Made by a program: the position numbers and the translations under genes. The notes below the pieces were generated by a model. It was not told where the DNA came from. It worked only from the letters and a program-made list of their open reading frames with translations, and did no database searches. A DNA stretch of 38,616 nt from Kiloniellaceae bacterium (GTDB lineage: Bacteria > Pseudomonadota > Alphaproteobacteria > Kiloniellales > Kiloniellaceae): the NCBI GenBank assembly GCA_009377535.1, contig WHTV01000032.1, positions 1 to 38,616 on the forward strand, read 5' to 3'. Shown here in pieces: positions 10,974 through 38,025 of the stretch (position 1 is its first letter; each line of letters starts with the position of its first letter).

Positions 10974-12338
10974 TTGCGCAGTTTTCCGCCAGTATTTGGG
11001 TACAAACGTCCGATTCTAGCCACGGATTTCCGTGGGTTTCCGAGCGGGATTCCAAATGGAGAATGGGCGGTTGCGACGGCATGGCAGGTCTTGGGCGTCA
11101 AATTCCACCACCAATCCAGCCGGTGGTGGCGCGGACGAGAGCACCCATGGGGCTGCGCCTCAGATCTCAACGCTTCGAGTTGGTTCGCGCGCCTTCCGGC
11201 GGTCGCCCCTATCCTCCTCACCGCCGTTGCCCTGCTGGTGATGGTCATCCGCGAAGCCCGCCGCCTATGGCCCTATCGCGACCAATACCAGCTGACCGAA
11301 CTGCTGGCCGATGCCGTCGTTGTCGTCTCGCTCATGGTGGGCACGGTCTTGTGCACTGTCGCGGCCTTCTCCCCGGCAGGCCTGGGGCGTCGTCGCCTCC
11401 CCTTCTGGCGCCAGGGCCACGTCGAGCGGGCAAGGAGCGGCAATTTCGGCACGGCCGATTGGATGCCGATCTCCGAGGCCAAGAAGCGCCTGCCGCATAC
11501 GCCCGGGATCGTCGTCGGCGAGGCCTACAGGGTAGATCAGGACAAAGTGGCCAACAGGCCCTTTAATCCCAAAGATCGGCGGTCCTGGGGCAAGGGCGGC
11601 TCCGCTCCCCTGCTCGAATACCAGTGCGACACCTCGTCCACCCATGGCCTGGTTTTCGCCGGCGCCGGCGGCTTCAAATCGACCTCGATTGCAGTCCCGA
11701 CCCTGGTTCGCTGGCCCCATTCGATCATCACCCTCGATCCCTCAAACGAACTGGCGCCAATGACGATCGCCGCGCGCAAGAAGATGCGCCGAGACGTTAT
11801 CGTGGTTTCGCCGAATGACCCGCAATCGAGCGGTTTCAATGTTTTGAGCTGGATCGACCCGGAAACCCCGGAAGCCGACGACAACGTTGCCTCCGTGGTC
11901 CAGTGGATCGCCGGCGACGACCAGATACGCGCCGGCAGCGGCGACAACCATTTCTTCATTTCGCAGGGCCGCGCCCTGGTGACCTGCCTCCTGTCCGACC
12001 TGGTTTTCGACCCGGATCTCCCACAATCGGAACGGACCCTCCGGACCTTCCGAGAGCGGCTGACCGAAAGCGAAACTGCCGAGAAAGAGCGCCTGGCGGA
12101 GATCCATGAGAACTCAGCGAGCTATCAGGCCCGCGACCTGGCCGGGTCTTTGATGGACATGAAGGCCGACGAGACCTTCTCTGGCATCTATGCCAACGCG
12201 GCCGACCTCACCAAGTGGCTTTCGACCCGCAATTACGCCGATTTGGTTTCCGGATCGGCCTTCACCACGCAGCAGCTCGTTGAGGGCAACCTGGATCTCT
12301 TCATCAACATCCCGCTCAAGACACTGGACTCCAATCGC
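10974..12338 (+). pseudogene. traG: Conjugative coupling protein TraG/VirD4, 3'-truncated
   Basis: The frame encodes two N-terminal membrane segments (around AVAPILLTAVALLVM and VVVSLMVGTVLCTVA), then the TraG core with P-loop GAGGFKST, ITLDPSNEL, and the INIPLKTLDS strand that in intact proteins leads into the Walker B half. All sequence after LDSN is missing: at 12339 it runs into IS-derived DNA and the frame ends at an unrelated stop (12653). Intact relatives recruit DNA to a type IV secretion channel. The start is uncertain (TTG 10974 is the frame limit); an alternative ATG at 11147 one frame off, reading MGLRLRSQRFELVR, would fit the family start if a one-base indel lies near 11180. No other transfer gene is present. 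Confidence 0.82.
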
Positions 12339-12852
12339 CTAGGCGTCTTCGTCGTAAGCGAGCTCGACCTGGCGCGATCCGAGGGGCGGGATCACCGCCT
12401 CGACCTCGGCCTCGGCGAGATGGCTGCGAAAGGCATCATTGTCGTAGCCCTTGTCGGCGATCAGACTGATCAGCGGGAAGCCTTCGATCAAGGCGAGGGC
12501 CTGGGTTGCTTCATGCACCTGGCCGGCGGTGAGGGTAAGGCGAAGCGGGTTGCCGAGGGCGTCGACAGCGATGTGGATCTTGCTGCTCAGGCCGCCCCGC
12601 GAGCGGCCGATGGCCTCCTTCTGAGTCCCCCTTTTGCGCCGGCGGCATGTTGATGCGCCCGCACGATGGTCGCGTCGACCATCACCTGCTCGAAGTCGGG
12701 GTTCTCGCTCAAAGCCTTGAAAAGACTCTCCCAAACCCCTTTGCGCGCCCATCGTCGAAAGCGCACGTAGACGCTGTTCCAGGGGCCGGACTCGTCGGGC
12801 AGGTCGCGCCAGGGCGCCCCCGTGCGCAACACCCACAGCACACCGTCCACCT
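12339..12852 (-). pseudogene. IS5-family (IS427-type) transposase, internal fragment
   Basis: The minus strand encodes the middle of a two-frame IS5/IS427 transposase. Frame A is VDGVLWVLRTGAPWRDLPDE through VMVDATIVRAHQHAAGAKGG. Frame B continues as GLSSKIHIAVDALGNPLRLT through LIADKGYDNDAF to SRQVELAYDEDA. The shift occurs at an AAAAGGGGG run (about 12628-12640) typical of programmed frameshifting in this group. Both the N-terminus (before VDGVLW) and the C-terminus (with the last catalytic Glu) are lacking and no terminal repeats are visible, so it is dead. It joins truncated traG on one side and the macB 3' end on the other. Confidence 0.85.
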
Positions 12853-22300: not shown

Positions 22301-23413
22301 GGCATTGGTGCATAGATGGTCAATAATTTGGCGATAGGCGGTCAGGCCCGATTTCAGCTTGACCCGTGTGCCATGCCCCACAAATACAACACCGCTCGCC
22401 GTCATCACATCGCGAAGATGAAATTCAGAGTGACGAACTGGCCGGATTATGAGGCCGGCCTGCGGCGCCGCGGTAGCCTGACCCTGTGGGTCACGCCGGA
22501 AGCATTGGCAGGGTGGCGCGCGCCCCGGCGAAGAACACGCGGTGGCCAGCCCCGGTATTCCGATCTTGCCATCGAAACCGCCCTGACGCTGGGTTGCGTC
22601 TTCGGCCTGCGGTTGCGCCAGACCGAGGGATTGATGGGCTCAATATTTGATCTCATGGGAGTGGAGATACCCGTCCCTGATCACACGACGCTGAGCCGAA
22701 GGGCGCAGAAGGGGGCGCCATCAGCCCAAAGACAGCCTCAGTCTATCCCGGATGGTCCGCTGCATGTGCTGGTCGACAGCACGGGATTGAAAATCTACGG
22801 CGCCGGGCGATGGCTGGAGGGCAAGCATGGCGCCAGATCGCGGCGGAACTGGCGCAAGCTGCACCTGGCAGTGGATGCCGACAGCGGCGAGATCATTGCC
22901 CATGGGCTGACCGATCAGGACACGGACGATCTTTCCCAGGTGGAGCCATTGCTCAACCAGATCGACGGCGAGATTGGTCAGTTCACAGCGGACGGCGCCT
23001 ATGACGGCAAGCCGACCTACGGAAAAGTCCTACAGCACAGTGGCCTGGCAAGGGTTGTCATCCCGCCTCGTGCAACAGCGGTGGAAAGCGGTGACACCGG
23101 ACCGCCGGGTCAAAGGGACAGCCACGTCGCGGCGATCGCGAAAGACGGGCGGCTGACATGGCAGGCGGCCACCGGCTATGGCAAGCGTGCTCTGATCGAA
23201 ACCGCCATCGGGCGCTACAAGGCGCTGATCGGACGACGCTTGCGGGCACGTTCCTTCATGGCTCAGCAGACCGAGGTCGCCATCGGCTGCATCGTTCTCA
23301 ACCGCATGCTGGCATGTGGACGCCCGGAATCTGTCCGCTGCCGAGCCATGAAGGCATAAGGGCTGATATCAAAGACCGAGATGCGTCGATCTTTCGATCG
23401 CTGCACCAAAGCC
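22301..23413 (+). mobile_element. Complete IS5-family insertion sequence (IS903-like group), about 1.1 kb
   Basis: Imperfect terminal inverted repeats bound one intact transposase: left GGCATTGGTGCATAGAT (from 22301) and right, read inward, GGCTTTGGTGCAGCGAT (ending at 23413), with 14 of 17 positions identical. The GGCTTTG-type end and the transposase sequence fit the IS903 group. The nine bases flanking each end do not match, so no target duplication is visible. It separates the fds region from the heavy-metal region. Confidence 0.8.
22373..23359 (+). CDS. IS5-family transposase
   Basis: A 328-residue DDE transposase. It begins MPHKYNTARRHHIAKMKFRV (IS903-type start) and carries LHVLVDSTGLKIYG (first Asp), TADGAYDGKPTY (second Asp) and a C-terminal RYKALIGRRLRARSF block near the last acidic residue. 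The frame is intact from start to stop, so the element may be active. I chose ATG 22373 over in-frame starts near the terminal repeat because family members start with this MP(H/Y)K segment. Confidence 0.92.
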   Translation: MPHKYNTARRHHIAKMKFRVTNWPDYEAGLRRRGSLTLWVTPEALAGWRAPRRRTRGGQPRYSDLAIETALTLGCVFGLRLRQTEGLMGSIFDLMGVEIPVPDHTTLSRRAQKGAPSAQRQPQSIPDGPLHVLVDSTGLKIYGAGRWLEGKHGARSRRNWRKLHLAVDADSGEIIAHGLTDQDTDDLSQVEPLLNQIDGEIGQFTADGAYDGKPTYGKVLQHSGLARVVIPPRATAVESGDTGPPGQRDSHVAAIAKDGRLTWQAATGYGKRALIETAIGRYKALIGRRLRARSFMAQQTEVAIGCIVLNRMLACGRPESVRCRAMKA

Positions 23414-24583: not shown

Positions 24584-25042
24584 TCAAGAGCCTTGGATCG
24601 GTGAACGTGGACGGCTGCGGCTCAGAGCGCGGTCGTCATTCCGAAACAATGCATCGATCACCGGACAATCGGGAACCTCGTCGCCGACGCATTTCGAGAC
24701 CATTTCCTTCAATGTCTTCTCGAGCACCTTGAGGTCCACGATCTTCGAGCGGACGCTGCGGAGATGCGCTACGGTCCTGTCTTTGACCTCGCCGCGGGTG
24801 TAGGTCCCGCCATCGACGAGGGTCAGGAGCCCGCGGACTTCTTCCAGGGAGAATCCCAGCTCGCGGCAACGGCGGATGAAGTTCAGCCGTCGCAGCAAGT
24901 TGTCGTCATAAAGCCGGTGACCGCCCTCGCTCCGCGGCGGTGGCGGCATGAGCCCGATCTGCTCGTAATACCGGATGGTCTCGAGGTTGCAACCTGTCAG
25001 CTTCGAGACGACACCCCTCGTCAGGCGTGGGGCCTTCGACAT
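24584..25042 (-). CDS. merR: MerR-family metalloregulator of the mer operon, with an altered metal site
   Basis: A 152-residue MerR protein with a winged HTH (LTRGVVSKLTGCNLETIRYY, EQIGLMPPPPRSEGGHRLYD), a long dimerisation helix and the C-terminal KCVGDEVPDCPVID loop. Counting from ATG 25042, C118 and C126 correspond to MerR Cys117 and Cys126, but the position of Cys82 is R83 (GGTYTRGEV, codon CGC at 24794-24796). A single T-to-C change from TGC would explain it. ATG 25042 has GAGGA at good spacing; the upstream in-frame ATG 25063 does not. It is divergent from merTPBFA. It may be a constitutive repressor, respond to another ligand, or sense Hg with two thiols. Confidence 0.92.
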   Translation of the reverse strand: MSKAPRLTRGVVSKLTGCNLETIRYYEQIGLMPPPPRSEGGHRLYDDNLLRRLNFIRRCRELGFSLEEVRGLLTLVDGGTYTRGEVKDRTVAHLRSVRSKIVDLKVLEKTLKEMVSKCVGDEVPDCPVIDALFRNDDRALSRSRPRSPIQGS

Positions 25043-25072
25043 GCTCGTTTCCTCATAGTTCATCCTGTGACT

Positions 25073-25234: not shown

Positions 25235-25265
25235 TTGAACCTGTAGGTACTACAGAGCGTAGGTT
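25235..25265 (+). promoter_or_regulatory. mer operon promoter with MerR-type operator in a 19-bp spacer
   Basis: The -35 TTGAAC (25235-25240) and -10 TAGGTT (25260-25265) are separated by 19 bp. The spacer contains the perfect dyad CTGTAG-GTA-CTACAG (25241-25255). An overlong 19-bp spacer with a central dyad is the hallmark of MerR-activated promoters. The half-site resembles CadR/PbrR/ZntR operators more than the Tn21/Tn501 mer operator. merT starts 30 bp downstream. Confidence 0.8.
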
Positions 25266-25294: not shown

Positions 25295-25723
25295 ATGATG
25301 GTCTACAGAAGCGCACAAGCGACGGAAGGCGCCGCCGCGCGGGAGCGGGCTCCGCACCGACTGGTCGAACGGACCCAACGGACGATCTTCGCCGGCGGCA
25401 GCGTGCTCGGTGCGCTGGCCATGTCGTCGTGCTGCATCGTGCCGCTGGTCCTCTTCAGCCTCGGCATCACCGGTGCGTGGATCGGAAATTTGGCATCGCT
25501 GTACCCCTATAAGCCATATTTCCTTGTGGCGACGGCGGTATTTCTCGGGCTTGGCTTCTACAGGACCTACCGGAAACCCCGTGCTGCGGCGTGTGACGCG
25601 GATGGGCAGTGCGGCACGCCGCTGTCGATGCGGATCACCAAGTCGGCTCTCTGGCTATCAACGGTTCTCGTGCTGGCCGCCCTCGCCTTCCCCTATTACG
25701 CGCCGCTGCTCCTCGAAACTTAA
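25295..25723 (+). CDS. merT: Mercuric ion transport protein MerT
   Basis: A 142-residue inner-membrane protein with three hydrophobic segments. The first carries the vicinal pair C46-C47 (MSSCCIVPL) that takes Hg(II) from MerP. The cytoplasmic loop contains a second pair, C100 and C106, which hands Hg(II) on. The third helix is near the C-terminus (LVLAALAFPYYAP). It is the first gene after the operon promoter; GGAG precedes ATG 25295 and the next codon is also ATG. Confidence 0.94.
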   Translation: MMVYRSAQATEGAAARERAPHRLVERTQRTIFAGGSVLGALAMSSCCIVPLVLFSLGITGAWIGNLASLYPYKPYFLVATAVFLGLGFYRTYRKPRAAACDADGQCGTPLSMRITKSALWLSTVLVLAALAFPYYAPLLLET

Positions 25724-25780: not shown

Positions 25781-26083
25781 ATGAAGCGCCTATTCATTGC
25801 CACAGCTGTGGGCGCGAGCTTGCTGGGCGCGTTCGCCGGGGCGGTCCCCGCCGCCTATGGCGCCCAACGCAGCGTCACTCTCGGGGTGCCCATGTGGTGC
25901 GCCTCCTGCCCCTACATCGTCAAGCGCAGCCTGGAGAAAGTCGCGGGCGTCCTGGACGTGGTTGTGTCCTACGAGGCCCAGACGGCCACTGTCCGCTACG
26001 ACGACGAGAAGGCCACGATCGCAGCACTCACGCAGGCGACTGCCGACGTCGGCTTTCCGTCGAAAGTTGCATCTTCCGAATAG
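25781..26083 (+). CDS. merP: Periplasmic mercury-binding protein MerP
   Basis: The 100-residue precursor has a signal peptide (residues 1 to about 28, ending PAAYGA) and an HMA domain whose metal loop is MWCASCP (C40, C43) in place of the usual GMTCAACP. The ferredoxin-like beta-alpha-beta pattern (LDVVVSYEAQTATVRYDDEK) follows. MerP captures Hg(II) in the periplasm for MerT. A GGAGAGAGGG ribosome-binding region precedes ATG 25781. The Trp before the first Cys, instead of Thr, is uncommon. Confidence 0.93.
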   Translation: MKRLFIATAVGASLLGAFAGAVPAAYGAQRSVTLGVPMWCASCPYIVKRSLEKVAGVLDVVVSYEAQTATVRYDDEKATIAALTQATADVGFPSKVASSE

Positions 26084-26102: not shown

Positions 26103-26882
26103 ATGGCGACCGTCGATCGATCCAACGAAATCCGGACCCGGGCGGCAGACCGGCCGACCTGGGCGATTCGGCCAGGAGTGCGCTTCCCCGACTGGTCGGT
26201 GATTCATTCGCCGAAGGCGGAAGGAGCCTTGGGGGACATTTTCGCCGTGCTCAAAATCGAGCGATGGTGGGACAACGTCAGCGACATCGAGGATCGCCTG
26301 CGTTGCATTCTCTTGCAAGACTACGTGAGGCATGGCCGGGCCCCAACCCTCCCTGCACTTGCCGCCATGGCCGGCATTTCTGAAGAGCGGGCTAGAGAGG
26401 TGCTCGCCCAATTGCGAGAGCGCGACCTCGTGGTTTTCGACGCGGAGCAAGATCGCTTAAGCGGGGCCTATCCGTTCACGGACTGCGATACCGAGCATCG
26501 CGTTCTCTTTGACGGTCTGTCCGTCAATGCCATGTGCGCCATCGACGCCCTTGGGGCTGGAGCCATGTACGAGCGCGACATCGTCGTGCACTCGCGGTGC
26601 AGAGCCTGCGACCGGTCGATCAGCGTGGAAATCCAGGCCCATGGCACCGCGCTCGCATCGTATTCGCCGCAGCGTGCGGTCGTCTGGACGGGCCTGCGCT
26701 ATGCAGACAATTGTGCAGCCTCCTCTCTCTGCACAGTGATGGCGTTTTTCTGTTCGGACGAGCATCTCGAAGAATGGCGGACCGCCAACCATCCCGATAT
26801 CCAAGGTCACCGCCTTTCGATGGAGGAAGCGCATGAGTTAGGCATGGCGATCTTCGGGCCAATGCTTCGAGCAGCCTCATGA
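26103..26882 (+). CDS. merB: Organomercurial lyase MerB, long N-terminal form
   Basis: The 259-residue enzyme has the catalytic set of MerB: C145 and D148 (VNAMCAIDALG, equal to Cys96 and Asp99 of the plasmid R831b enzyme) and C210 (SSLCTVMAFF, equal to Cys159). It breaks C-Hg bonds, giving Hg(II) for MerA, so the operon is broad-spectrum. Plasmid MerB is 212 residues; the extra length here is mostly a Trp/Arg-rich N-terminal extension (residues 1 to about 55). A winged-helix-like segment (LAAMAGISEERAREVLAQLR) follows. The neighbour of the catalytic Cys that is Cys160 in the plasmid enzyme is Thr here. AAGGGG precedes ATG 26103. Confidence 0.93.
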   Translation: MATVDRSNEIRTRAADRPTWAIRPGVRFPDWSVIHSPKAEGALGDIFAVLKIERWWDNVSDIEDRLRCILLQDYVRHGRAPTLPALAAMAGISEERAREVLAQLRERDLVVFDAEQDRLSGAYPFTDCDTEHRVLFDGLSVNAMCAIDALGAGAMYERDIVVHSRCRACDRSISVEIQAHGTALASYSPQRAVVWTGLRYADNCAASSLCTVMAFFCSDEHLEEWRTANHPDIQGHRLSMEEAHELGMAIFGPMLRAAS

Positions 26883-26901
26883 CAGCGCAACGGAGAACGT
26901 G

Positions 26902-27156
26902 ATGACGAAGAACAAGAAGATGCTCTGCACTGGTGCCGGCGGCACGATCGTGGTTGCGCTCTGCTGCTTCACGCCGCTCCTCGTCGTGCTGCTCGGCGCC
27001 GTCGGCCTCTCCGCGTGGTTGGGCTGGCTCGACTACGTTCTGTTCCCGGCGCTCGCGGCTTTCATCCTGCTGACACTCTATGCACTCTATCGGCAGCGTA
27101 GATACCCCGATTCTGCCGGTGCAACGACTTCTGGAGAAAGCGGTGGCAAATCATGA
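26902..27156 (+). CDS. merF: Mercury transport protein MerF
   Basis: An 84-residue protein with two transmembrane helices. The N-terminal helix holds the vicinal pair C21-C22 in VALCCFTPLLVVLLG, the MerF signature, followed by LDYVLFPALAAFILLTLYAL. The second Cys pair that MerF usually carries after helix 2 is absent here; the tail is Ser/Gly-rich. The start could be GTG 26899 or the adjacent ATG 26902. The stop overlaps the merA start (ATGA). Confidence 0.9.
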   Translation: MTKNKKMLCTGAGGTIVVALCCFTPLLVVLLGAVGLSAWLGWLDYVLFPALAAFILLTLYALYRQRRYPDSAGATTSGESGGKS

Positions 27157-28598
27157 GTGAAGTCATGTACACGTGCTGCGATACCCCTTCGAAGCGTGGC
27201 AACGAACACGCGGACCTAATCGTGGTGGGCGCCGGTTCCGCCGGCTTCTCCGCGGCGATCACGGCGGCCGAGCTGGGCGCCAAGGTCGCCCTGGTGGGCC
27301 ATGGCACCATCGGGGGCACCTGCGTCAATATCGGCTGCGTCCCCTCGAAGACGCTGATCCGCGCCGCAGAGACCTTGCACCAGGCACACGCGGCATCACG
27401 CTTCTCGGGCATCGAAGCCAAAGGCCGGCTCCGTGACTGGTCGACGCTGGTGGCTCAGAAGGACGAACTGGTCGCCTCGCTGCGCCAGACCAAGTACGCG
27501 GATCTGCTGCCGCATTACGAAGGCGTGACATATCTGGACGGGCCGGCTCGGCTGACGAACGGGGGCGTCCAGGTCAACGGAGGCTTGCTGTCGTCCGATA
27601 AGGTCGTCATCACCACCGGCGCACGGCCAGCCGTGCCCGCGATCCCCGGCATCGAAGGCGTCCGATATCTTACGAGCACGACAGCGCTCGAGCTCACGCG
27701 GTTACCACGCTCGCTCCTCGTCATCGGCGGCGGCTACGTCGGCTGCGAGCTGGCCCAGATGTTCTCCCGAGCGGGAGTCGAGGTCACCCTGGTTTTCCGC
27801 AGCCGCCTGCTCCCCGAGGCCGAGCCCGAAATCGGCGAGGCGCTCACGCGGTATCTTCAGGACGAAGGCCTCCGGATCCGAGGCGGGCTGTCCTATCGCG
27901 GGATTCGCAACAGCGAGCGGGGGATCGCCCTCGACGTGGTCGAAGGAGATATCCCCAAGACAATCGAGGCCGACCAAGTGCTGGTCGCCACGGGCCGACG
28001 GCCCAACGCGGACGATCTCGGGCTCGAAGAGATTGGCGTCGAGCTGTTGGTCAATGGCGGCATTAAAGTGGACGACCGTCTGCGCACGACCAGGGCAGGC
28101 GTTTATGCGGCGGGCGACGTCACCGGCGGCGACATGTTCGTCTACGTGGCTGCCTACGGCGCCCGGGTCGCGGCTAACAATGCGCTCAACGGCGACAACC
28201 GGCGCTATGATACGACCGCGATGCCGTCGGTGGTCTTCACAGACCCGCAGGTCGCGGGCTGCGGCCTTACCGAGGCCGAGGCAAAATCGCAGGGCCTGGA
28301 CGTCCGCACGTCGGTCTTGCCTCTCGAGTACGTCCCCCGCGCGCTCGCGGCCCGTGACACCCGCGGCCTCATCAAGCTCGTTGCCGAGGCGCACAGCGGG
28401 CGCCTGCTCGGTGCGCATATCCTGGCACCGGAAGGGGCCGACAGCATCCAGACGGCCGTGCTCGCCATCAAGCATGGCCTGACAGTCACGGACTTGGCCG
28501 AAACGATTTTTCCCTACCTCACGACGGTGGAGGGACTGAAGCTTGCCGCACAGACCTTCGACAAGGATGTGGCGAAGCTGTCCTGCTGCGCGGGATAG
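27153..28598 (+). CDS. merA: Mercuric reductase MerA without an N-terminal HMA domain
   Basis: The 481-residue flavoprotein disulfide reductase has the FAD site VVGAGSAGFSAA, the redox pair C57/C62 (GGTCVNIGCVPSK), an NAD(P)H-binding GGGYVGCELAQ, a second FAD motif VYAAGDVTGG, and the C-terminal vicinal pair C478-C479 (KLSCCAG) that delivers Hg(II) to the active site of the partner subunit. It reduces Hg(II) to Hg(0) with NADPH. There is no NmerA domain, only a short leader with its own vicinal Cys pair (MYTCCDTP, C8-C9). Length is that of the catalytic core. Confidence 0.96.
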   Translation: MSEVMYTCCDTPSKRGNEHADLIVVGAGSAGFSAAITAAELGAKVALVGHGTIGGTCVNIGCVPSKTLIRAAETLHQAHAASRFSGIEAKGRLRDWSTLVAQKDELVASLRQTKYADLLPHYEGVTYLDGPARLTNGGVQVNGGLLSSDKVVITTGARPAVPAIPGIEGVRYLTSTTALELTRLPRSLLVIGGGYVGCELAQMFSRAGVEVTLVFRSRLLPEAEPEIGEALTRYLQDEGLRIRGGLSYRGIRNSERGIALDVVEGDIPKTIEADQVLVATGRRPNADDLGLEEIGVELLVNGGIKVDDRLRTTRAGVYAAGDVTGGDMFVYVAAYGARVAANNALNGDNRRYDTTAMPSVVFTDPQVAGCGLTEAEAKSQGLDVRTSVLPLEYVPRALAARDTRGLIKLVAEAHSGRLLGAHILAPEGADSIQTAVLAIKHGLTVTDLAETIFPYLTTVEGLKLAAQTFDKDVAKLSCCAG

Positions 28599-29086: not shown

Positions 29087-29118
29087 TTGACTCTGTACTA
29101 TGGTACGGAGGGCAACCT
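29087..29118 (+). promoter_or_regulatory. Canonical mer-type promoter/operator of the second metal unit
   Basis: The -35 TTGACT (29087-29092) is followed by the near-perfect dyad CTGTAC-TATG-GTACGG (29093-29108). This closely matches the Tn21/Tn501 mer operator (TTGACTCCGTAC...GTACGG). A weak -10 (GCAACC or CAACCT, about 29112-29118) lies 19-20 bp downstream of the -35. It is upstream of the MerR-HMA gene it probably controls. Confidence 0.7.
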
Positions 29119-29137
29119 TCAGCATGAGGTGAGTGAG

Positions 29138-29821
29138 ATGCATGACATGACCATCAGTCGCGCCGCGCGGGAGGCTGGCGTCGGGGTCGAGACGATCCGC
29201 TTCTACGAGCGCTGGGGCCTGATTGCCCAGCCTTGCAAACCCGCCGGCGGCGGTGCCCGTGAGTACGACGAGGAGACCGTTGCCCGTGTCCGCTTCGTAC
29301 GTCAGGCGCAAGACATCGGGTTTTCGCTGCGCGAGATCGCAGAACTCCTGTCCTTGCGCGCCGACCTGGGAGCCGATTGCTCGGCCGTGCGGGCCAGGGC
29401 TATGGAGAAGCGCGACGCGGTCCAAGCCAAGCTCGAGCAACTTGCCCGTGTGCGCGATGCCCTGGACACGCTCATCGCCTTCTGCCCAGGAAGCGGGGCT
29501 GTCAGGGCCTGCACGATCCTTGAGGCGATTGAGAAAGGGGCGGCCGCCGACCAATCGGAAGCACCCTCCCGTTCAAGCAATACAGCAAGTGGGAAAATCG
29601 CGATGAAGACAACCCTGTTGGCCATCGACGGCATGCATTGCGACGGTTGCGCCCGTACGGTCGAGGCGCTCCTCTCACGCCTGCCGGGCGTCCGCAAGGC
29701 CGAGGCCTCTTTCGATGAACGTCAGGCCCGCGTGCTCCACGATCAGGAGAGCGTGTCCGAAGTCGACTTGGCGGAGGCCATCGCCAAGGGCGGATTTACG
29801 GCAAAGGTAGAGAGCCAATGA
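29138..29821 (+). CDS. MerR-family regulator fused to a C-terminal HMA (MerP-like) domain
   Basis: The 227-residue protein has a MerR HTH (ISRAAREAGVGVETIRFYER), a dimer helix, and a metal site with C81 (GADCSAVR), C116 (AFCPGSG) and C125 (RACTILEA). The spacings (35 and 9) are exactly those of MerR Cys82/117/126. After a polar linker (135-155) comes an HMA domain with IDGMHCDGCARTVEALL (C168, C171). The frame is uninterrupted. An internal ATG (29603) before the HMA part has no convincing ribosome-binding site, so a fusion is more likely than two genes, though internal initiation is possible. ATG 29138 or 29147 may be used. Its stop overlaps the next start (ATGA). Confidence 0.88.
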   Translation: MHDMTISRAAREAGVGVETIRFYERWGLIAQPCKPAGGGAREYDEETVARVRFVRQAQDIGFSLREIAELLSLRADLGADCSAVRARAMEKRDAVQAKLEQLARVRDALDTLIAFCPGSGAVRACTILEAIEKGAAADQSEAPSRSSNTASGKIAMKTTLLAIDGMHCDGCARTVEALLSRLPGVRKAEASFDERQARVLHDQESVSEVDLAEAIAKGGFTAKVESQ

Positions 29822-30504
29822 TCGAGGCCGGCTTCCTGGGCCTGGTCGCGATCCCCGCCGGACTGGGGCTCATCGGCTTCGTCGAACCTTGCTCGATCGG
29901 ATCGAGTCTCCTGTTCGTGAAATATCTCGAAGGCAAGAGCGCCGCTGCCAAGCTTGTCGAAACGACGCTGTTCGCCTTGACCCGCACAGTCTTCATCGGC
30001 CTGCTCGGCGTTCTCGCGGCGCTGCTGGGCACCCTCTTCCTCGATCTGCAGCGCAGCGCCTGGCTCGTGCTCGGCACCCTCTATGCCGCGCTCGGCCTCC
30101 TGCTCGCGACCGGGCGCGCCCGCGCCCTGATGATTTCGATCGGCCCGAGCCTGAAGCGGCTCGGCGGCCTGCGTGGCTCAGTCGGGCTCGGCCTCCTGTT
30201 CGGGCTGAACATTCCCGCCTGCGCCGCACCCCTCCTGTTGGCCCTGCTCGCCGGCGCGGCGGCAACCAATGGCGCGCGCCTCCTGAGCGGCTTCGTTGCG
30301 CTCGCGGTCTTCGGCCTTGCCCTGTCGCTGCCGCTGCTCGCGATCGTGCTTGTCCCCTCCGCAGGCAGGCTGCTCGACCGCCTTGCCGGGCTGTCGGGGC
30401 GCTTTCCCGTCCTTGCCGGCCTGGTGCTCGTCGCGCTCGGCGCCTGGTCGGTCTGGTTCGGCCTGTTCGCAACCATCGATCCGGGAGCAAAGCCCACAAC
30501 CTGA
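29818..30504 (+). CDS. CcdA/DsbD-like integral membrane protein
   Basis: A 228-residue, about six-helix membrane protein with two helix-embedded cysteines in Pro contexts: C25 (GFVEPCSIGSS) and C135 (LNIPACAAPLL). These are the two positions that CcdA and the DsbD membrane domain use to carry reducing equivalents across the membrane. It is coupled to the MerR-HMA gene by ATGA and followed by the P-type ATPase 13 bp later. Likely roles are keeping periplasmic or membrane metal thiols reduced, or a transport function; neither is shown by sequence. Sequence similarity to experimentally studied CcdA looks limited. Confidence 0.8.
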   Translation: MIEAGFLGLVAIPAGLGLIGFVEPCSIGSSLLFVKYLEGKSAAAKLVETTLFALTRTVFIGLLGVLAALLGTLFLDLQRSAWLVLGTLYAALGLLLATGRARALMISIGPSLKRLGGLRGSVGLGLLFGLNIPACAAPLLLALLAGAAATNGARLLSGFVALAVFGLALSLPLLAIVLVPSAGRLLDRLAGLSGRFPVLAGLVLVALGAWSVWFGLFATIDPGAKPTT

Positions 30505-30517
30505 AGGGAGCCCAACA

Positions 30518-32962
30518 ATGACGACGGCGACAACCGCTCAGGAGGCGTTGTGGAGCGAGGAATCCTCCGACCGGCCGGGGCGCGCCCGGATCCGTGCCCG
30601 CATCGGCGGGCTCCACTGCTCCCTCTGCACCGGCACGATCGAGAAGGCGCTCGGCCGCCAGAAAGGCGTCGACAAGGTCGCGGTCAGCCTTACCCACGAG
30701 CAGGCACTCGTCGAATTCGATCCGCAGGTCGTGAAGCCGGAGGCCCTTCGCCAGATCCTGCGCGACATCGGCTACACCATTCACGATCCCAACAAGCTGC
30801 GCCCCTTCGAGGAAGAGGAGCGGGAACTTGTCAGGGAAGGTCGCCGCTTCCTGGTGGCGACGACCTTCAGTCTTCTCGCCATCGCGCTGATCACCGAACC
30901 GGCTGGCCTGCTGTCTTCCATCTTGCCGGCGGTCGCGACCGGCAGTCTGGTTGCCTTCGCATTTCTCGTCCTGAGGGCGCGCGGACTGTGGCCAGCGATC
31001 GTCGGCGCCGGCGGCCTCGGCGCGCTCACCGTGGCGCTCCTCGTACTGAAGAGCGAGGGGCTGCTCGCCGCCATCGCCCCCTGGCTGGTCGGCGGGATCG
31101 CCATAACGCTGATTTTCGGCGTCGCCCGGCACATCCTGGTGATGGCGGTGCAGGCCGTGCGCCGCGGCATCCTCAACCAGCACGTCCTCCTCGAGGCAGG
31201 CGCCTTCGCCGGGCTCGCCGGCGGCCTCATCGGTCTGGTTCTCGATCCGCCCGGCTACCCGACCGCCCCCTTCTTCGCGGTGGCAGTCATGGTTGCGACC
31301 TATCATCTCTTCTCTGAATGGCTATCGCTCATCGTCAAGACCCGCTCGTCCCAGGCGGTCAAGCGCCTACTCGATCTGCAGCCGGAGACGGCTCGCGTGC
31401 TGCGCAACGGCCGAGAGACCGAGGTCGCGGTCGCCGAGGTTGCCGAGGGAGACTTGGTGCGCATCCGGCCCGGCGAACGCCTGCCGGTCGACGGCGAGGT
31501 CGTGGGAGGCCGCTCCACGGTGGATCAGTCGCTGGTTACCGGCGAGCCCATGCCGGTCGACCGCCAAGCCGGCGACAAGGTCATCGGTGGCACCGTCAAC
31601 GGCACCGGCACCCTGCTGGTGCGGGTCACGACCGTCGGCGCCGGCAGCTTCCTCCAGCGCGTCGCGCGCGAGGTTGAGGATGCCCGCGCCCTGAAACCTG
31701 GACTTTTGCATCTGGTCGACCGTGTCCTGCGGATCTACACGCCGACCATCCTGACGATCGCGCTTCTTGCCTTCGTTGGCTGGGCACTGTTGCCGCAGCT
31801 GTTCGGATTCACAGCGGACCTGCAGCGCGCCGTCTTCGCCGGACTGAGCGTGCTTATCATGGGCTATCCCTGCGCCGTCGGCATCTCGGCACCGCTGTCG
31901 ATCGTGCGCGGCGCCGGCGAAGCCGCGGAGAAAGGCATCTTGATGCGTACCGGCGAGGCCTTTCAGGGCTACCAGCTCGTGAAGCAGGTCGCCTTCGACA
32001 AAACGGGTACGCTGACCGAGGGACGCCCTCGCATACTGGAGATCGAAGCAGTCTCGGGCACGACCGAGGAACTTCTCGCAGTTGCCGCTGCTGTGGAGGC
32101 TTCCTCAGAACATCCCCTTGCCCAGGCCGTGATCGAAAAGGCCTTTGAAGCGCACCTGACGCCACCGCAAGCCGAAACCTTTGAGGCGACCCCGGGACGG
32201 GGTGTCAGGGCCAGCATCGACGGCAGCGAGATCCTGGTCGGCAGCCCGCGCTTTCTGGTCGAGCGCGGCGTGGCCCTGAAGGTGCTGGATGAGCGCATTC
32301 ACACCCTCGAGCGCCAAGGGCGCACTGTGATCGCCGTGGCGCGCGACAGTGAACCCCTGGGCTTGCTCGCCCTTGGAGACGCGCCGCGCGTCGACGCCGC
32401 TGAGACGGTCCGCAGATTGCGCGAGGGCGGCGTGCGGACTGTGCTCATCACAGGCGACAACCGGCGCGCGGCCAATCGGGTCACCAAGGAGTTGGGTCTC
32501 GACGCGGTCTATGCCGAGGTCATGCCGCGCGAGAAGGCCGAATTGATCCGCGAGTTACAAAAGCAGGGCCGCACCGCCATGGTCGGTGACGGGATCAACG
32601 ACGCCCCTGCCCTGATGCAGGCCGATGTCGGCATCGCCATGGGATCAGGCACCGACATCGCCATCGACGCAGCCGATATCATCATCCTGAACAACCGCGT
32701 TTCGAATGTCGTGGAGGCGCGGGAGATCAGCCGCTACGGCTATCGCAAGATGGTACAGAACGTCTCGCTAGCCTTCCTGTTCAATGGCATCGGCGTGCCG
32801 CTTGCTGCGACCGGTCTGGTCTATCCCGTATGGGCCATGGTCGCCATGGCCGCCAGCGTGACGGCGATTTTCGTCAACTCGCTCTGGGGCCGACCGCGCC
32901 TGTTCTTCGATGCGATTCTCAGCGTCGGCCGCCCGCTCGCGGAGACGCGCGAAGTCGGCTAA
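30518..32962 (+). CDS. P1B-type heavy-metal-translocating ATPase with HMA domain and YPC membrane motif
   Basis: The 814-residue pump has an N-terminal HMA domain (IGGLHCSLCTGTIEKAL, C34 and C37), a membrane domain, the actuator loop SLVTGEPMPV, the phosphorylation site D494 (FDKTGTLTEG), the HP motif SSEHPLAQ, and GDGINDAPAL. The TM6 metal motif is Y450-P-C452 (MGYPCAVGISAPL), not CPC, SPC or TPC. The C-terminal helix has MVAMAASVTAIFVNSLWGRP, close to the MxxSS region of Cu/Zn pumps but with MAASVT. AAGGGAG precedes ATG 30518. Context (Hg-type operator, MerR triad) suggests Hg(II) or a soft metal, exported or imported; specificity is unknown. Confidence 0.93.
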   Translation: MTTATTAQEALWSEESSDRPGRARIRARIGGLHCSLCTGTIEKALGRQKGVDKVAVSLTHEQALVEFDPQVVKPEALRQILRDIGYTIHDPNKLRPFEEEERELVREGRRFLVATTFSLLAIALITEPAGLLSSILPAVATGSLVAFAFLVLRARGLWPAIVGAGGLGALTVALLVLKSEGLLAAIAPWLVGGIAITLIFGVARHILVMAVQAVRRGILNQHVLLEAGAFAGLAGGLIGLVLDPPGYPTAPFFAVAVMVATYHLFSEWLSLIVKTRSSQAVKRLLDLQPETARVLRNGRETEVAVAEVAEGDLVRIRPGERLPVDGEVVGGRSTVDQSLVTGEPMPVDRQAGDKVIGGTVNGTGTLLVRVTTVGAGSFLQRVAREVEDARALKPGLLHLVDRVLRIYTPTILTIALLAFVGWALLPQLFGFTADLQRAVFAGLSVLIMGYPCAVGISAPLSIVRGAGEAAEKGILMRTGEAFQGYQLVKQVAFDKTGTLTEGRPRILEIEAVSGTTEELLAVAAAVEASSEHPLAQAVIEKAFEAHLTPPQAETFEATPGRGVRASIDGSEILVGSPRFLVERGVALKVLDERIHTLERQGRTVIAVARDSEPLGLLALGDAPRVDAAETVRRLREGGVRTVLITGDNRRAANRVTKELGLDAVYAEVMPREKAELIRELQKQGRTAMVGDGINDAPALMQADVGIAMGSGTDIAIDAADIIILNNRVSNVVEAREISRYGYRKMVQNVSLAFLFNGIGVPLAATGLVYPVWAMVAMAASVTAIFVNSLWGRPRLFFDAILSVGRPLAETREVG

Positions 32963-34048: not shown

Positions 34049-34699
34049 ATGATAAGCACTGGTGGGCCCGTCGACGGCCAGCCCCTAGTTGAACTCAGGA
34101 GCAAGACGATCGACACACAACGTTGGTCAGTCAGTCGAAGCAGAGAGTACGACCGATGTCTCGCCGATCTCATGCGAGCAGCGCAGGACGGAGACAGGGC
34201 TGCATATGCGCGGCTTCTTGGCGAGGTATTCCCTCTGCTGCGGCAGATTGTGCGGCGGCGATACTGCTTTCTTCCGCCGCCGGACATCGAAGACATTGTC
34301 CAGGAGATACTTCTTTCCCTTCACGTTGCCCGCGCGACCTACGATCCGCAGCGCCCCTTCCTTCCCTGGCTGATGGCCATCGCCCGCAATCGCATGGCCG
34401 ATGGCGCCCGATGCCATGCGCGGCGCTCAATGCGCGAAATCGCTGTCGAGCGCCTGCCTGAAACCTTTTCGGGCCCTGATCCGAATATTCATGAGAACGT
34501 CTATGGTGATCCCGAGGCGCTGCGGCAGGCCATGCACCAGCTGCCGCGTGGTCAACGCGAAGCCGTGAAACTGCTGAAGCTTCGCGAGATGTCGCTGAAG
34601 GAGGCGGCCGCCATCACCGGAATGAGTATTGGTGCGCTCAAGGTTGCCGTACACAGGGCGGTTAGAACGCTGCGCACGTTATTGAACCACGAGGCTTGA
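34049..34699 (+). CDS. ECF-type RNA polymerase sigma factor
   Basis: The 216-residue protein has sigma region 2 (ADLMRAAQDGDRAAYARLL, PPDIEDIVQEILLSLHVA, FLPWLMAIARNRMADGAR) and region 4 (LPRGQREAVKLLKLREMSLK, EAAAITGMSIGALKVAVHRA), with no regions 1 or 3, as in ECF sigma factors. ATG 34049 lacks a good ribosome-binding site; M42 (34172) would begin at region 2, so the true start may be internal. The stop overlaps the region of the anti-sigma start (TTGA). The partner type (NrsF/DUF1109) and the neighbouring secreted cytochromes suggest a response to an envelope or redox/metal signal. Confidence 0.92.
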   Translation: MISTGGPVDGQPLVELRSKTIDTQRWSVSRSREYDRCLADLMRAAQDGDRAAYARLLGEVFPLLRQIVRRRYCFLPPPDIEDIVQEILLSLHVARATYDPQRPFLPWLMAIARNRMADGARCHARRSMREIAVERLPETFSGPDPNIHENVYGDPEALRQAMHQLPRGQREAVKLLKLREMSLKEAAAITGMSIGALKVAVHRAVRTLRTLLNHEA

Positions 34700-34701
34700 G
34701 C

Positions 34702-35361
34702 ATGGAAACAGTCGATCTGATCCAGCGCCTGGCAATGAGCGTTCGCCCAGTCCGGCTGCTTCCACCGCCATGGCTGCGCACTGCGCACTGGCTTGCCATC
34801 GCGCTGTCGTCAATGGCTATCGTGGTCATGCTGATGTCTCCACGAGACGATCTACTAGAAAAGCTCTCGGAGGCACGTTTCCTGATCGAGCAGGCTGCAG
34901 CGGTTGCAACGGCGGTGACAGCGGCCATCGCCGCCTTCTGCCTGGTCGTTCCCGGTCACAGCCGAAAGCGTGCCCTTCTGCCCATCTTTCCGCTCGTGAT
35001 CTGGCTGGGTAGCCTGGGGTACGGCTGTCTGCAGAGTTGGCTCCAGTTCGATACCGAGGCCTGGCAAGTCTATCCCGACTGGATCTGCTTTCCCTCTATC
35101 GTCATGGTCGGTGCCGTGCCTGCATTGACGATGGTCATCATGCTCCGCCGGGGCGCACCGATGGCGCCACGGTTGACCGTCTCGCTCGGCGCGCTGGCGG
35201 CGGCTGCGGTCGGCAATTTCGGGCTGCGGCTGTTCCATTACCAGGATGCCAGCCTCATGGTCCTGATCTGGCAGTTCGGCAGCGTCGCGCTCTTGTCGGC
35301 GCTTGCCGGCTGGAGCGGTGGGTCGATTCTCCACTGGCCGCATGCCAAAATAACCAGCTGA
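34702..35361 (+). CDS. NrsF/DUF1109-type anti-sigma factor, six membrane helices
   Basis: The 219-residue membrane protein has a short cytoplasmic N-terminus (METVDLIQRLAMSVRPVRLL) and about six hydrophobic helices (from WLAIALSSMAIVVMLMS to FGSVALLSALAGWSGGSI). This is the architecture of the DUF1109/NrsF family encoded with ECF sigma factors, which sequesters the sigma factor at the membrane. GAGG lies before ATG 34702; TTG 34696 is an alternative that overlaps the sigma stop. Two cysteines in or near helices (for example DWICFP and LVVPG-adjacent FCL) could sense redox or metals; this is speculation. Confidence 0.85.
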   Translation: METVDLIQRLAMSVRPVRLLPPPWLRTAHWLAIALSSMAIVVMLMSPRDDLLEKLSEARFLIEQAAAVATAVTAAIAAFCLVVPGHSRKRALLPIFPLVIWLGSLGYGCLQSWLQFDTEAWQVYPDWICFPSIVMVGAVPALTMVIMLRRGAPMAPRLTVSLGALAAAAVGNFGLRLFHYQDASLMVLIWQFGSVALLSALAGWSGGSILHWPHAKITS

Positions 35362-35603: not shown

Positions 35604-36689
35604 CTACTTCACCCGTGTCTCCTCAGGAATGAAGAACAGGCTATCCTGCGCGTCGGCGACCGTTGCATGACAACCGACACAAAACTCTACAGCCTCAGCA
35701 TTTGGTCCATGCGTTCGACCGGCAACCGTGCCGTCCGGCATGACCATGGTGTAGCGCCAGTCTTTGCTCGCCGGATGCCAGCCTATGTCCATCTTCTCCA
35801 TCAGGAAGAGCGGCCCGAGCTGCGCATTGCCGTTCGGCAAGATCGTAAAACTCGGTTTGGCGATGATCCCGCCCTGCGGCATCATCCCGATGTTCTCATA
35901 CTTTCCGTATGGCTCCTCGGCGATATCGTTGGCATGGTTGACCACGAAGCGGTTTCCATGCGTTTGGGACGTATAGGGCGCCGACGCAAAGTTCTTCCAG
36001 TCGAGGAATGACTTCGCCTCCGCCAAGCCGCTGGCGCTATAGGCGACATGCTGCAGCCGCGCTGTGCCGTAGTTCGCGAAGTTTATTCCGTTCTGCCAGC
36101 CATCGCCATATGCGGTGCGCATGTAGCCTTGCAGGCAGTCGTAGACGGCATGCAGCTCTTCCGGCGTGACGTCCGGTACGGCCGCCGCCCCGCAAGGATT
36201 GCAGGGGTTGCAGGGGTTTTTGGCTGCGCAAGGATTTTTCGCCGCACAGGGATTGGCCGCTGCACAGGGCTTGGCTGTCGCGCTGCTGGGAATCTTTTTC
36301 TTCGCCGCGCAGGGATTGGCGCCACATGGTGCCTTTGCCGCACACGGATTGGCAGCGCAAGGCTTTTGCACGGCACACGGGTTGGCTGCGGCGGCACAGG
36401 GCTTCTGCTTCACTGCGCAGGGGTTGCATGGCTTGGCCGCAGCCGCACAAGGACTGGTGGCGGCGCACGGATTAGCCTGCGCCTGCTGCAGCCGCGGCAC
36501 GCCGCAGCCGGTCGCGCCGGCCGGCGCCGCACCACAAGGGGCGCAGGGGTTTGGCGAGCACGGATTGGCGGATTGGGCATGGGCCACCGGAGTGAAGCCC
36601 ATGCCGGGACCTGTAACAGCGGCAAAGCCGACGCCAAGAGCAATCGGAATCGCCGCGCTACACAGGCATTTTTTTTGCAATGGTGACAT
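35604..36689 (-). CDS. Secreted cytochrome P460-family c-type heme protein with Asn-Pro-Cys repeat domain
   Basis: The 361-residue protein has a signal peptide (to about A38, PVAHA), then residues 44-166 with 20 cysteines, almost all preceded by Pro (NPC, KPC, APC) and spaced mostly by 3 or 6. A cytochrome P460-like domain follows (about 175-361), with DWRYTMVMPDG and a single c-type heme site C337-V-G-C340-H341. The P460 domain resembles the protein at 37333-38025. GAGGAGAAG before ATG 36689 decides the start. The repeat domain looks like a metal- or disulfide-rich spacer; function unknown. Located beside an ECF sigma/anti-sigma pair. Confidence 0.88.
   Translation of the reverse strand: MSPLQKKCLCSAAIPIALGVGFAAVTGPGMGFTPVAHAQSANPCSPNPCAPCGAAPAGATGCGVPRLQQAQANPCAATSPCAAAAKPCNPCAVKQKPCAAAANPCAVQKPCAANPCAAKAPCGANPCAAKKKIPSSATAKPCAAANPCAAKNPCAAKNPCNPCNPCGAAAVPDVTPEELHAVYDCLQGYMRTAYGDGWQNGINFANYGTARLQHVAYSASGLAEAKSFLDWKNFASAPYTSQTHGNRFVVNHANDIAEEPYGKYENIGMMPQGGIIAKPSFTILPNGNAQLGPLFLMEKMDIGWHPASKDWRYTMVMPDGTVAGRTHGPNAEAVEFCVGCHATVADAQDSLFFIPEETRVK
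36192..36560 (-). repeat. Degenerate tandem repeat coding for (x)NPCAAK-type units
   Basis: Within the P460 gene the DNA repeats with periods of 18 and 9 bases, coding for NPCAAK, KPCAAA and NPC units. The longest regular run is residues 142-166 (Cys at 142, 148, 154, 160, 163, 166). Units vary at the base level, so the repeat is old or under selection at protein level. Confidence 0.85.
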
Positions 36690-36765
36690 GCTCTTCTCCT
36701 CAAGCGAGCCGAAACACTGAGCCCGCCTTTTTTTTGCTGAAGACCGTTGGATCGTACACAACCCT

Positions 36766-36798
36766 GCCCGTGTCAGTCCCTCTCGGGCTGACACGGGC
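36766..36798 (-). promoter_or_regulatory. Strong hairpin in the 5' leader of the Asn-Pro-Cys cytochrome gene
   Basis: Perfect 11-bp arms GCCCGTGTCAG (36766-36776) and CTGACACGGGC (36788-36798), with inner CCC/GGG pairing, lie about 77 bp upstream of ATG 36689 and downstream of the putative promoter at 36812-36839. No T-run follows in the minus direction (AGGGTTGTG), so it is not a standard terminator. It may stabilise or regulate the leader RNA, or be a dyad for a DNA-binding protein. Confidence 0.6.
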
Positions 36799-36811
36799 CT
36801 TCCCATACTTC

Positions 36812-37332: not shown

Positions 37333-38025
37333 ATGCGGGTTGGTCGCGACAAGGGCGTGGGGGCGACTGCGCCGAAGGCGTATCGCCCGAGCACGCTTTC
37401 ATCCCTGCTCTCGTTCGCGCTGTTGCTTTCAGCGCTACAAGGCCCGCCCAGCCACGCGCAAGACGTCGACCTCATGCGACCGAAGCAGCACTTCTCAATC
37501 GAGAAACCGCGCGTGCTGGAGCCGGCGGAGACAATGGCCATTTACCAGAGTGTGCGAAAACGCATGCTTGCCGGTTACGACCGATCGCAAAATCCCGCAA
37601 TCGCAGATCTCGGCGAGTGGCTGCACTATAACAGTGCGCCATATCTCTCGGCGGCACATGGCAAGCGATACGTCAACAACTACGCCAATCCCTTGGCGCG
37701 GGCGTACAGCCGCTACGAGGCGGCGGGGCCGATGCCGGTGGGCGCCGTTCTGGCCAAAGATTCCTTTACGGTCACCCGCACCGGCGAGGTCTTCGCCGGG
37801 GCGCTGTTCGTCATGGAGAAGATGCCTTCCGGCTTCAATGCCGCGAGCCACGACTGGCGCTACACCATGATCATGCCCGACGGCAGCCTCTTTGGCATGA
37901 CCAAGGGAGAAGGCAGCGAACGCGTCGAATTCTGCATCACCTGCCACGAAGCCGCCGACGACTCGCACCATCAGATGTTCTTCGTACCGCAGCAATACCG
38001 CATCGAGATCCTCAATCCTCAATAA
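37333..38025 (+). CDS. Secreted cytochrome P460-family c-type heme protein
   Basis: The 230-residue precursor has an N-terminal signal sequence (SLLSFALLLSALQGPPSHAQ). Its P460-like domain contains YNSAPYLSAAHGKRYVNNYA, LFVMEKMPSGF and DWRYTMIMPDG, with one c-type heme motif C201-I-T-C204-H205 near the C-terminus. It is a paralogue of the P460 domain at 35604-36689 but lacks the Cys-rich region. AGGGAGGG precedes ATG 37333. Family members include hydroxylamine-oxidising P460 and NO-binding cytochromes c'-beta; the cross-linking Lys and catalytic role cannot be settled by eye. Confidence 0.88.
   Translation: MRVGRDKGVGATAPKAYRPSTLSSLLSFALLLSALQGPPSHAQDVDLMRPKQHFSIEKPRVLEPAETMAIYQSVRKRMLAGYDRSQNPAIADLGEWLHYNSAPYLSAAHGKRYVNNYANPLARAYSRYEAAGPMPVGAVLAKDSFTVTRTGEVFAGALFVMEKMPSGFNAASHDWRYTMIMPDGSLFGMTKGEGSERVEFCITCHEAADDSHHQMFFVPQQYRIEILNPQ

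Follow-up and report, generated by a model that had tools for sequence, protein, structure and literature searches.

A MerR-HMA regulator, a CcdA-like membrane protein and a YPC-type P1B-ATPase: a candidate soft-metal export unit beside a mer operon

What does a heavy-metal pump do beside a complete mercury resistance operon? Accounts of mercury resistance usually describe uptake of the metal and its subsequent reduction to Hg(0). The question is raised by a stretch of 38,616 nucleotides from a Kiloniellaceae bacterium (contig WHTV01000032.1 of assembly GCA_009377535.1), which was analysed whole and is called the window below. In it, a mer operon (merR on the minus strand, then merT, merP, merB, merF and merA) lies upstream of three plus-strand genes, which encode a MerR-type regulator with a C-terminal HMA domain (227 aa, 29138-29821), a CcdA-like membrane protein (228 aa, 29818-30504) and a P1B-type ATPase (814 aa, 30518-32962). 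A first-pass annotation had proposed that these three genes form one operon for soft metals behind a mer-type operator and next to a full mer operon. The layout it described was correct in all coordinates, with an ATGA overlap between the first two genes and a gap of 13 bp before the third, and a mer operon does lie beside them. We propose that the unit serves as an export arm inducible by soft metals and often forms part of mercury regulons, a reading to which we give about half of our belief; the metal that it would sense and export is most probably mercury.

A clade of P1B pumps with a YPC motif

The ATPase gene has a Shine-Dalgarno (SD)-like GAAGGGAG, and its product contains an N-terminal HMA domain (GLHCSLC), YPC at residues 450-452 and DKTGT from residue 494. 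It matches TIGR01525 with 561.2 bits (cut-off 346.25) as well as the Pfam E1-E2 ATPase and hydrolase families, as expected of a P1B heavy-metal ATPase. Neither the P1B-1 nor the P1B-2 subgroup accommodates it. P1B-1 pumps carry CPC in transmembrane helix 4 (TM4), Tyr-Asn in TM5 and MxxSS in TM6, whereas the window pump has YPC, FN and MxxSV, keeping the Asn, the Met and the first Ser. The combination of CPC, TM5 Lys and TM6 Asp of P1B-2 is likewise absent by comparison with ZntA and PbrA.

Relatives were collected with the window ATPase itself as query. Of the 308 relatives that GTDB genomes yielded, the 80 best were taken as YPC loci, each with up to about 10 kb per side; contig ends often shortened these stretches, which reach at least 20 kb at 45 of the 80, and the 80 loci collapse to 62 clusters at 90% identity. 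Relatives were also found on plasmids, where 89 records matched the ATPase at E<=1e-100 and 17 of them covered at least 80% of it. With 10 plasmid loci the set comes to 90 relatives, or 91 loci including the window. TM4 reads GYPC in all 91 (ATPases above 550 bits); of the ATPases in these loci that score lower, seven carry CPC, one CPH and one an undetermined motif. In a quick tree of 77 rows, the 25 YPC rows stand on one side of a branch of length 0.92, with a support of 100 in the Shimodaira-Hasegawa-like approximate likelihood ratio test (SH-aLRT). Haloarchaeal, Deinococcus, actinobacterial and cyanobacterial members are among these rows, and members overall were seen in Pseudomonadota, Acidobacteriota, Actinomycetota, Deinococcota, one cyanobacterial metagenome-assembled genome and haloarchaea. 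On the haloarchaeal plasmids L010 and L011, the YPC ATPase adjoins winged-helix regulators, and in L011 it is also near an annotated merA.

The 25 YPC rows, one of them gapped from position 748 on, were compared residue by residue with 44 CPC rows. The first Cys of the TM4 motif is replaced by Tyr450 in 25/25 rows, the TM5 Tyr by Phe755, the second Ser of TM6 by Val781 and the Met of the NMx motif by Gln221. Two Glu placed in TM2 by the structural model are replaced as well, one by Ala, Ser or Gly at 254 and the other by Ser or Ala at 270. His222 is invariant in the YPC rows and His263 and Arg464 are newly invariant; Cys452, Asn756, Met777 and Ser780 are unchanged, and Met774 is additional. 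We take the altered positions to be sites with roles in copper pumps, as described in the CopA literature. The window pump resembles P1B-1 pumps such as CopA and ATP7B in overall architecture, in its N-terminal HMA domain and in the TM5 Asn and the TM6 Met and Ser, and departs from them at each of the replaced positions. A further difference is a stretch of about 45 residues, present in the window pump and its nearer bacterial relatives and absent from the haloarchaeal, Deinococcus and Leisingera forms, in which an extra helix pair is predicted (131-153 and 157-179; model with a predicted local distance difference test score, pLDDT, of 79.9).

The surroundings of these pumps were set against 36 control loci of non-YPC P1B-ATPases (35 CPC, 1 CPD), drawn from a class sample of 385 alphaproteobacterial genomes that includes the window's own; the control loci come from fewer genomes than there are loci, and two of these genomes also hold a YPC ATPase. 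A CcdA-like gene lies near the ATPase at 57/80 YPC and 0/36 control loci, and is adjacent on the same strand at 43/80 and 0/36, counts that carry a bias toward detection at YPC loci because the CcdA queries, like those for thioredoxin and for major facilitator superfamily (MFS) proteins, came from there. The full triple of the window (MerR-HMA-class regulator, family-A CcdA and YPC ATPase) recurs at 24 of the 80 loci; rare co-occurrence of the three genes, named in the first-pass annotation as a finding that would refute it, has not been borne out. In a second arrangement, the ATPase is accompanied by an MFS protein and another MerR regulator, together with an ArsE-like thioredoxin and a CcdA/ArsG-like protein. 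Under strict thresholds, mer genes were called in the stretch at 29/80 YPC and 0/36 control loci (p=2.9e-6), or 23.2/62 when weighted by the clusters at 90% identity. Pumps of the resistance-nodulation-division type were found at 10/80 and 2/36.

Within the class sample, a close YPC copy is present in 5/385 genomes including the window's own (1178-1739 bits), after which the next best matches fall to 456 bits. merA occurs in 30/385 genomes and in 5/5 of those with a close YPC pump (p=2.7e-5, own genome left out). This search scored two candidates per genome and thus missed distant YPC pumps; three of its four YPC loci outside the window (L123, L125 and L126) appear to duplicate L003, L065 and L058. 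One distant pump missed by the scoring, in G105, adjoins merTPA and has its frame split in two.

The middle gene of the unit encodes a protein whose Cys25 (EPC) and Cys135 (PxC) are invariant in a 28-row alignment, a likeness to the two membrane cysteines of the CcdA/DsbD transmembrane domain. The hhalign comparison with two CcdA families of related loci gave weak matches (probability 88.5 and 78.3); tested representatives of those two families match Pfam DsbD_TM, and the families match each other with a probability of 99.6. The window protein itself has no Pfam or NCBIfam match, none of the 28 family members matches DsbD_TM, and a Foldseek search of its model (pLDDT 77) against the PDB returned no match at E<=0.001. 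The family differs from CcdA/DsbD in this lack of a DsbD_TM match and in its linkage to metal genes.

Promoter, regulator and a probable free HMA protein

A MerR-type promoter, conserved in relatives, precedes the unit at 29087-29118 on the plus strand. Its -35 element TTGACT (29087-29092) and -10-like element CAACCT (29113-29118) are separated by 20 bp, and this long spacer holds the 7-4-7 dyad TCTGTAC-TATG-GTACGGA (29092-29109). As the first-pass annotation had claimed, the dyad is close to classical merO, since 13 of its 14 bases agree with the MerR consensus TCCGTAC-4-GTACGGA given by Permina et al. 2006 (PMC1526738); this is the operator expected of a Hg(II)-responsive MerR. With up to two mismatches and within 130 bases upstream, CCGTAC-N4-GTACGG was found at 34/40 MerR-HMA-class regulators of the 80 loci and at 5/11 weaker matches to that class. 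Classical merR genes in YPC loci have this type of dyad at 1/40 and CTGTAG-N3-CTACAG at 25/40. The ZntR palindrome was found upstream of 0/40 MerR-HMA-class regulators. The hmr-type regulators gave 0/25 for each dyad, which, their starts being poorly estimated, is not readable as absence.

At up to three mismatches, the window's own genome (4.43 Mb) contains the 23-mer of the promoter once and the same 23-mer read backwards not at all. The promoter pattern, present in the window once, ahead of MerR-HMA, gave 67 sites in the 80 YPC loci, nine in the 10 plasmid loci and none in the 36 control loci; the reversed pattern gave none. Behind these 76 merO-type sites (90 loci) lie a gene whose best match is the MerR-HMA regulator (36), the ATPase (16, in 16 loci), merT (6), ccdA (3) and one other regulator; the remaining 14 have no nearby gene of the panel. 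On the Marinobacter plasmid pSMR5 (L008), sites stand before merT (of merTPA), MerR-HMA, ccdA and the ATPase, a distribution that may be read as one regulon. When the class sample was searched for the dyad with up to two mismatches, 35/385 genomes matched, and among 15 further loci fetched from these and picked for good dyads, five have mer genes (L200, L209, L210, L211 and L213).

Some sites precede genes of other kinds. In L028, L033, L034 and L038, near 6.2 kb, a merO-type site lies upstream of a stretch that is followed by the MerR-HMA unit; in L034 this stretch encodes a MacB/FtsX-like permease and a LolD-like ATP-binding cassette (ABC) ATPase. By clustering, the LolD-like ABC ATPase is present in 14 loci and the MacB/FtsX-like permease in 12. 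Related, probably secreted proteins are encoded at L012:5095-6618 and in L211 near 5513, with the common stretch PAVYFAALSNLANAVMFSGLGEALVI; they have a merO-type site upstream and are placed between CcdA and a distant YPC ATPase, and the L012 copy has no Pfam match.

The regulator starts at the ATG at 29138, with GAGGTGAG upstream, or alternatively at 29147, and matches Pfam MerR_1, MerR-DNA-bind and HMA above the gathering score. Its sensor cysteines are Cys81, Cys116 and Cys125, the last two in the C-x8-C spacing of Hg(II)-MerR, and the HMA domain has Cys168 and Cys171. Among 24 fused MerR-HMA genes (20 of the 80 GTDB loci, three plasmid loci and the window), the first sensor Cys is kept in 21, and with it the whole triad; the other two sensor Cys and both HMA Cys are kept in all 24. 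Among solved structures, 5crl, which is the regulator of a mercuric resistance operon, comes nearest to the regulator part (86.6 bits), followed by 4ua1 (68.5 bits), CueR (63), CadR (58) and others. The recognition helix is nearly identical between the MerR-HMA/hmr grouping and MerR of the Tn501 type.

The fusion itself has to be read with some care. When M, V or L ahead of a K/R/Q-T/N pair and within 14 residues of the HMA motif was searched, a start codon was found nine residues before the metal motif in 24/24 fused genes (19 ATG, 5 GTG). At this position, valine is encoded by GTG in 5/5 cases, against 119/393 valine codons overall (p=0.0025). SD pairing is better here than at the other ATG/GTG codons in frame, of which 176 were compared (p=3.6e-6, an optimistic value as the rows are related). 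An SD-like word precedes the internal start in 14/24 genes, the window not among them; in the window the SD is weak by motif and pairs with -3.9 kcal/mol. Where merR and HMA are separate genes (21 loci), HMA lies in another frame and overlaps merR by ATGA (16) or GTGA (3) in 19/21, and the two remaining pairs have gaps of 49 and 247 bases. Because of the start codon in all 24 fusions and the overlap in 19 of the 21 separate pairs, a free HMA protein is probably also made from the MerR-HMA gene; in the window it would be a 72-aa metallochaperone (29603-29821, plus strand). The most fitting view of the HMA part is that of a small chaperone gene which, in some lineages, joined the reading frame of the regulator but retained its own start. 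The MerR-HMA fusion of the first-pass annotation holds as three Pfam domains in one frame, and needs correction for the free HMA protein that is probably made as well. In E. coli copA, where a second product is annotated, one gene likewise encodes a long protein together with a short chaperone of the HMA type, the latter made through a frameshift; the short form of MerR-HMA would instead use an internal start codon.

The neighbouring mer operon and the rest of the window

The mer operon upstream is of a different make. Its MerR-family regulator (24584-25063, minus strand) lacks a Cys where MerR has its first one and shows a C-x7-C spacing, a CueR-like pattern; its best NCBIfam match is CueR, below the cut-off. 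On the plus strand, the promoter with the dyad CTGTAG-GTA-CTACAG (25235-25265) differs from merO and is of the type found at 25/40 classical merR genes of related loci. As the two window units differ in their dyads, the MerR-HMA unit is the only one of the two with classical merO. The promoter is followed on the same strand by merT (25295-25723, Pfam MerT above the gathering score), merP (25781-26083, Pfam HMA, with TIGR02052 MerP as best NCBIfam match, below the cut-off), merB (26103-26882, Pfam MerB), merF (26899-27156, NF033565 above the NCBIfam cut-off) and merA (27153-28598, TIGR02053 with 559.9 bits, cut-off 454.45).

A coupling-protein-like conjugation gene (10974-12653) and a DDE transposase (22316-23359) suggest that the window belongs to a mobile island. 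Downstream of the unit, two cytochrome P460-like proteins with weak Pfam matches are encoded at 35604-36806 (minus strand; with a Cys-Pro rich stretch, NPCAAK..) and 37333-38025 (plus strand), beside genes for an extracytoplasmic function (ECF)-like sigma factor (34049-34699) and an NrsF-type anti-sigma factor (34696-35361). A PADLOC scan gave no match.

Proposed role and its alternatives

We propose the following order of events. A MerR-type activator with the mercury-sensor Cys triad, sitting on a merO-type promoter, would turn the operon on in response to a thiophilic divalent metal, likeliest Hg(II); the anatomy of sensor and promoter was observed, and the metal is what we infer from it. 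One mRNA would then give an HMA metallochaperone in two forms, one attached to the regulator as its tail and the other, probably, a free protein of 72 aa. The chaperone would pass the metal to the CxxC of the ATPase HMA domain, and the YPC pump, judged by its family, would export it to the periplasm through a membrane site in which two Cys have given way to one Cys, an Asn and one or more Met. Speculatively, such a one-thiol site would fit species that already bear one thiolate or carbon ligand, RHg+ or RS-Hg+. The CcdA-like protein, to judge by its two invariant cysteines, may carry reducing equivalents across the membrane and keep thiols of the chaperone or of a periplasmic acceptor reduced. 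The whole would be a second line beside MerT/MerA and would act alone where a mer operon is not near.

Several observations weigh against this reading. Export beside the importers MerT and MerF would make little sense, unless MerA cannot keep up or a different cargo is pumped. The mer genes, enriched around the ATPase as a whole, are present in only 7/24 window-like triples; 17/24 have none in the fetched stretch, some of whose contigs are short, and the unit is therefore not tied to a mer operon. The second line of defence that the first-pass annotation had considered possible would thus be no mere addition to merTPA. A MerR gene next to the pump is less telling, as controls often have one as well (19/36, vs 56/80 at YPC loci), and the nearest solved relatives of the pump are copper pumps. 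Arsenic genes (arsH, aioA) were found at 6/80 YPC vs 0/36 control loci and are thus more frequent near YPC pumps, so these islands carry other resistances too. The regulator misses the cut-off of the NCBIfam model for MerR, TIGR02051 (112.7 vs 150.85 bits), which is still its best among the models listed. In a tree of 72 regulators, 16/23 MerR-HMA rows, the window's included, cluster with 19 hmr rows (97/88). Because the window row falls in this group and not with MerR of the Tn501 type, the tree does not support an orthologous relation between the regulator and Tn501 MerR. Finally, at least four of the 15 further dyad loci (L201, L202, L205 and L212) face a gene that is glutaredoxin-like by its N-terminus; the one tested, in L201, is a glutaredoxin-MauE fusion. 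The small divergent MerR regulators of L201, L202 and L205 have C-x7-C and no first Cys, and that of L212 has three Cys with C-x7-C. The merO-type dyad accompanies both mercury genes and thiol-redox membrane genes. With glutaredoxin-like genes also found behind merO-type sites, the metal is not defined by the operator alone, and as a proof of mercury the operator was rejected; of the mercury-type operator claimed at first, the dyad stands and its specificity does not.

A different account makes the pump a P1B-1 exporter of Cu(I) or Ag(I) whose site has drifted, its Hg-type regulator and mer neighbours coming from shared metal islands. The best solved-structure profile matches are Copper-transporting ATPase 2 and CopA (598-615 bits, vs 424 for a zinc-transporting ATPase), Asn756, Met777 and Ser780 are shared with copper pumps, and the YPC loci L003 and L007 adjoin copper genes. 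We nevertheless regard this account as unlikely, since the substitutions take in the first Cys of the CPC motif, Tyr in TM5, the second Ser in TM6, both TM2 Glu and the Met of NMx, and the regulator has C-x8-C, where CueR has C-x7-C. Copper genes occur at 6/80 YPC vs 4/36 control loci, and without an excess near YPC pumps the explanation by copper islands was rejected. The C-x8-C loop is, by alignment, common to ZntR and PbrR, and the frequency of triples with no mer gene in their stretch would also suit a broad exporter of divalent soft metals (Cd, Pb, Zn) under a multi-metal-sensing MerR. The membrane site, devoid of the TM5 Lys and TM6 Asp of ZntA and PbrA, and the presence of the MerR dyad rather than the ZntR palindrome make this improbable.

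Scarcely less improbable is a thiol-stress unit, responding to thiol-reactive metals or electrophiles, in which the CcdA-like protein would serve redox repair or act as an ArsG-like permease and the pump would export a thiol conjugate. The merO-type sites that face glutaredoxin-like genes, the glutaredoxin-MauE gene among them, would fit it, and so would other YPC loci, in which weak NCBIfam matches under the cut-off point to an ArsE-like thioredoxin and to an ArsG/CcdA-like protein, but HMA domains on both regulator and pump and the metal-type Cys triad of the sensor point to a metal ion. That the genes are neighbours by chance in a mobile metal-resistance island is very improbable. Such an island would be in keeping with the transposase and conjugation gene of the window, the plasmid relatives and the arsenic genes near some YPC pumps; against it, the gene order recurs in distant hosts and in 0/36 controls, the genes overlap, and merO sites are repeated before individual members. 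A chance neighbourhood was rejected against the 36 control loci and is close to refuted.

The proposed export unit can be placed among known systems. It shares with the mer operon (merR-T-P-(B)-(F)-A) a three-Cys MerR-type activator, a merO-type promoter and an HMA protein, and differs from it in having an ATP-driven pump and a CcdA-like protein, no reductase or importer, and the regulator as first gene of the operon. In cueR/copA and zntR/zntA a MerR-family sensor controls a P1B exporter, as it would here; the unit differs from them in operator, Cys pattern and pump site, and adds CcdA-like and HMA partners in one operon. PMC1526738 describes the ZntR and CueR systems, and reports mixed sites like that of the unit, with its 20-bp spacer, at three mer loci. 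The available part of PMC10654040 treats all P1B pumps as exporters and divides them into P1B-1, P1B-2, P1B-3 (now P1B-1) and P1B-4; the word mercury does not appear there. In the main text of PMC8261052, on mer gene diversity, as far as it was available, no mention of ATPase, CcdA, HMA or efflux was found, and PMC11227200 reports that mercury induces uncharacterised hypothetical genes in rhizobial mer operons. Titles and abstract starts of the matches listed from the open-licence literature held no description of the unit or of the YPC clade. More tentatively than for the export arm itself, we suggest that the YPC ATPases may form an old lineage of their own among the P1B pumps, specialised on thiolates of mercury or organomercury, which would combine a one-Cys membrane site, an HMA chaperone from an internal start, membrane thiol reduction and merO-run export parallel to MerA.

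If the proposal is correct, some mercury-resistant bacteria, and some that have no mer operon nearby, would also export mercury or organomercury. The P1B family would gain a new branch that is defined by sequence and whose selectivity can be tested through the exchange of Cys for Tyr, and one gene giving both sensor and chaperone is a concrete, testable prediction. The way in which genomes are read for mercury cycling would then change.

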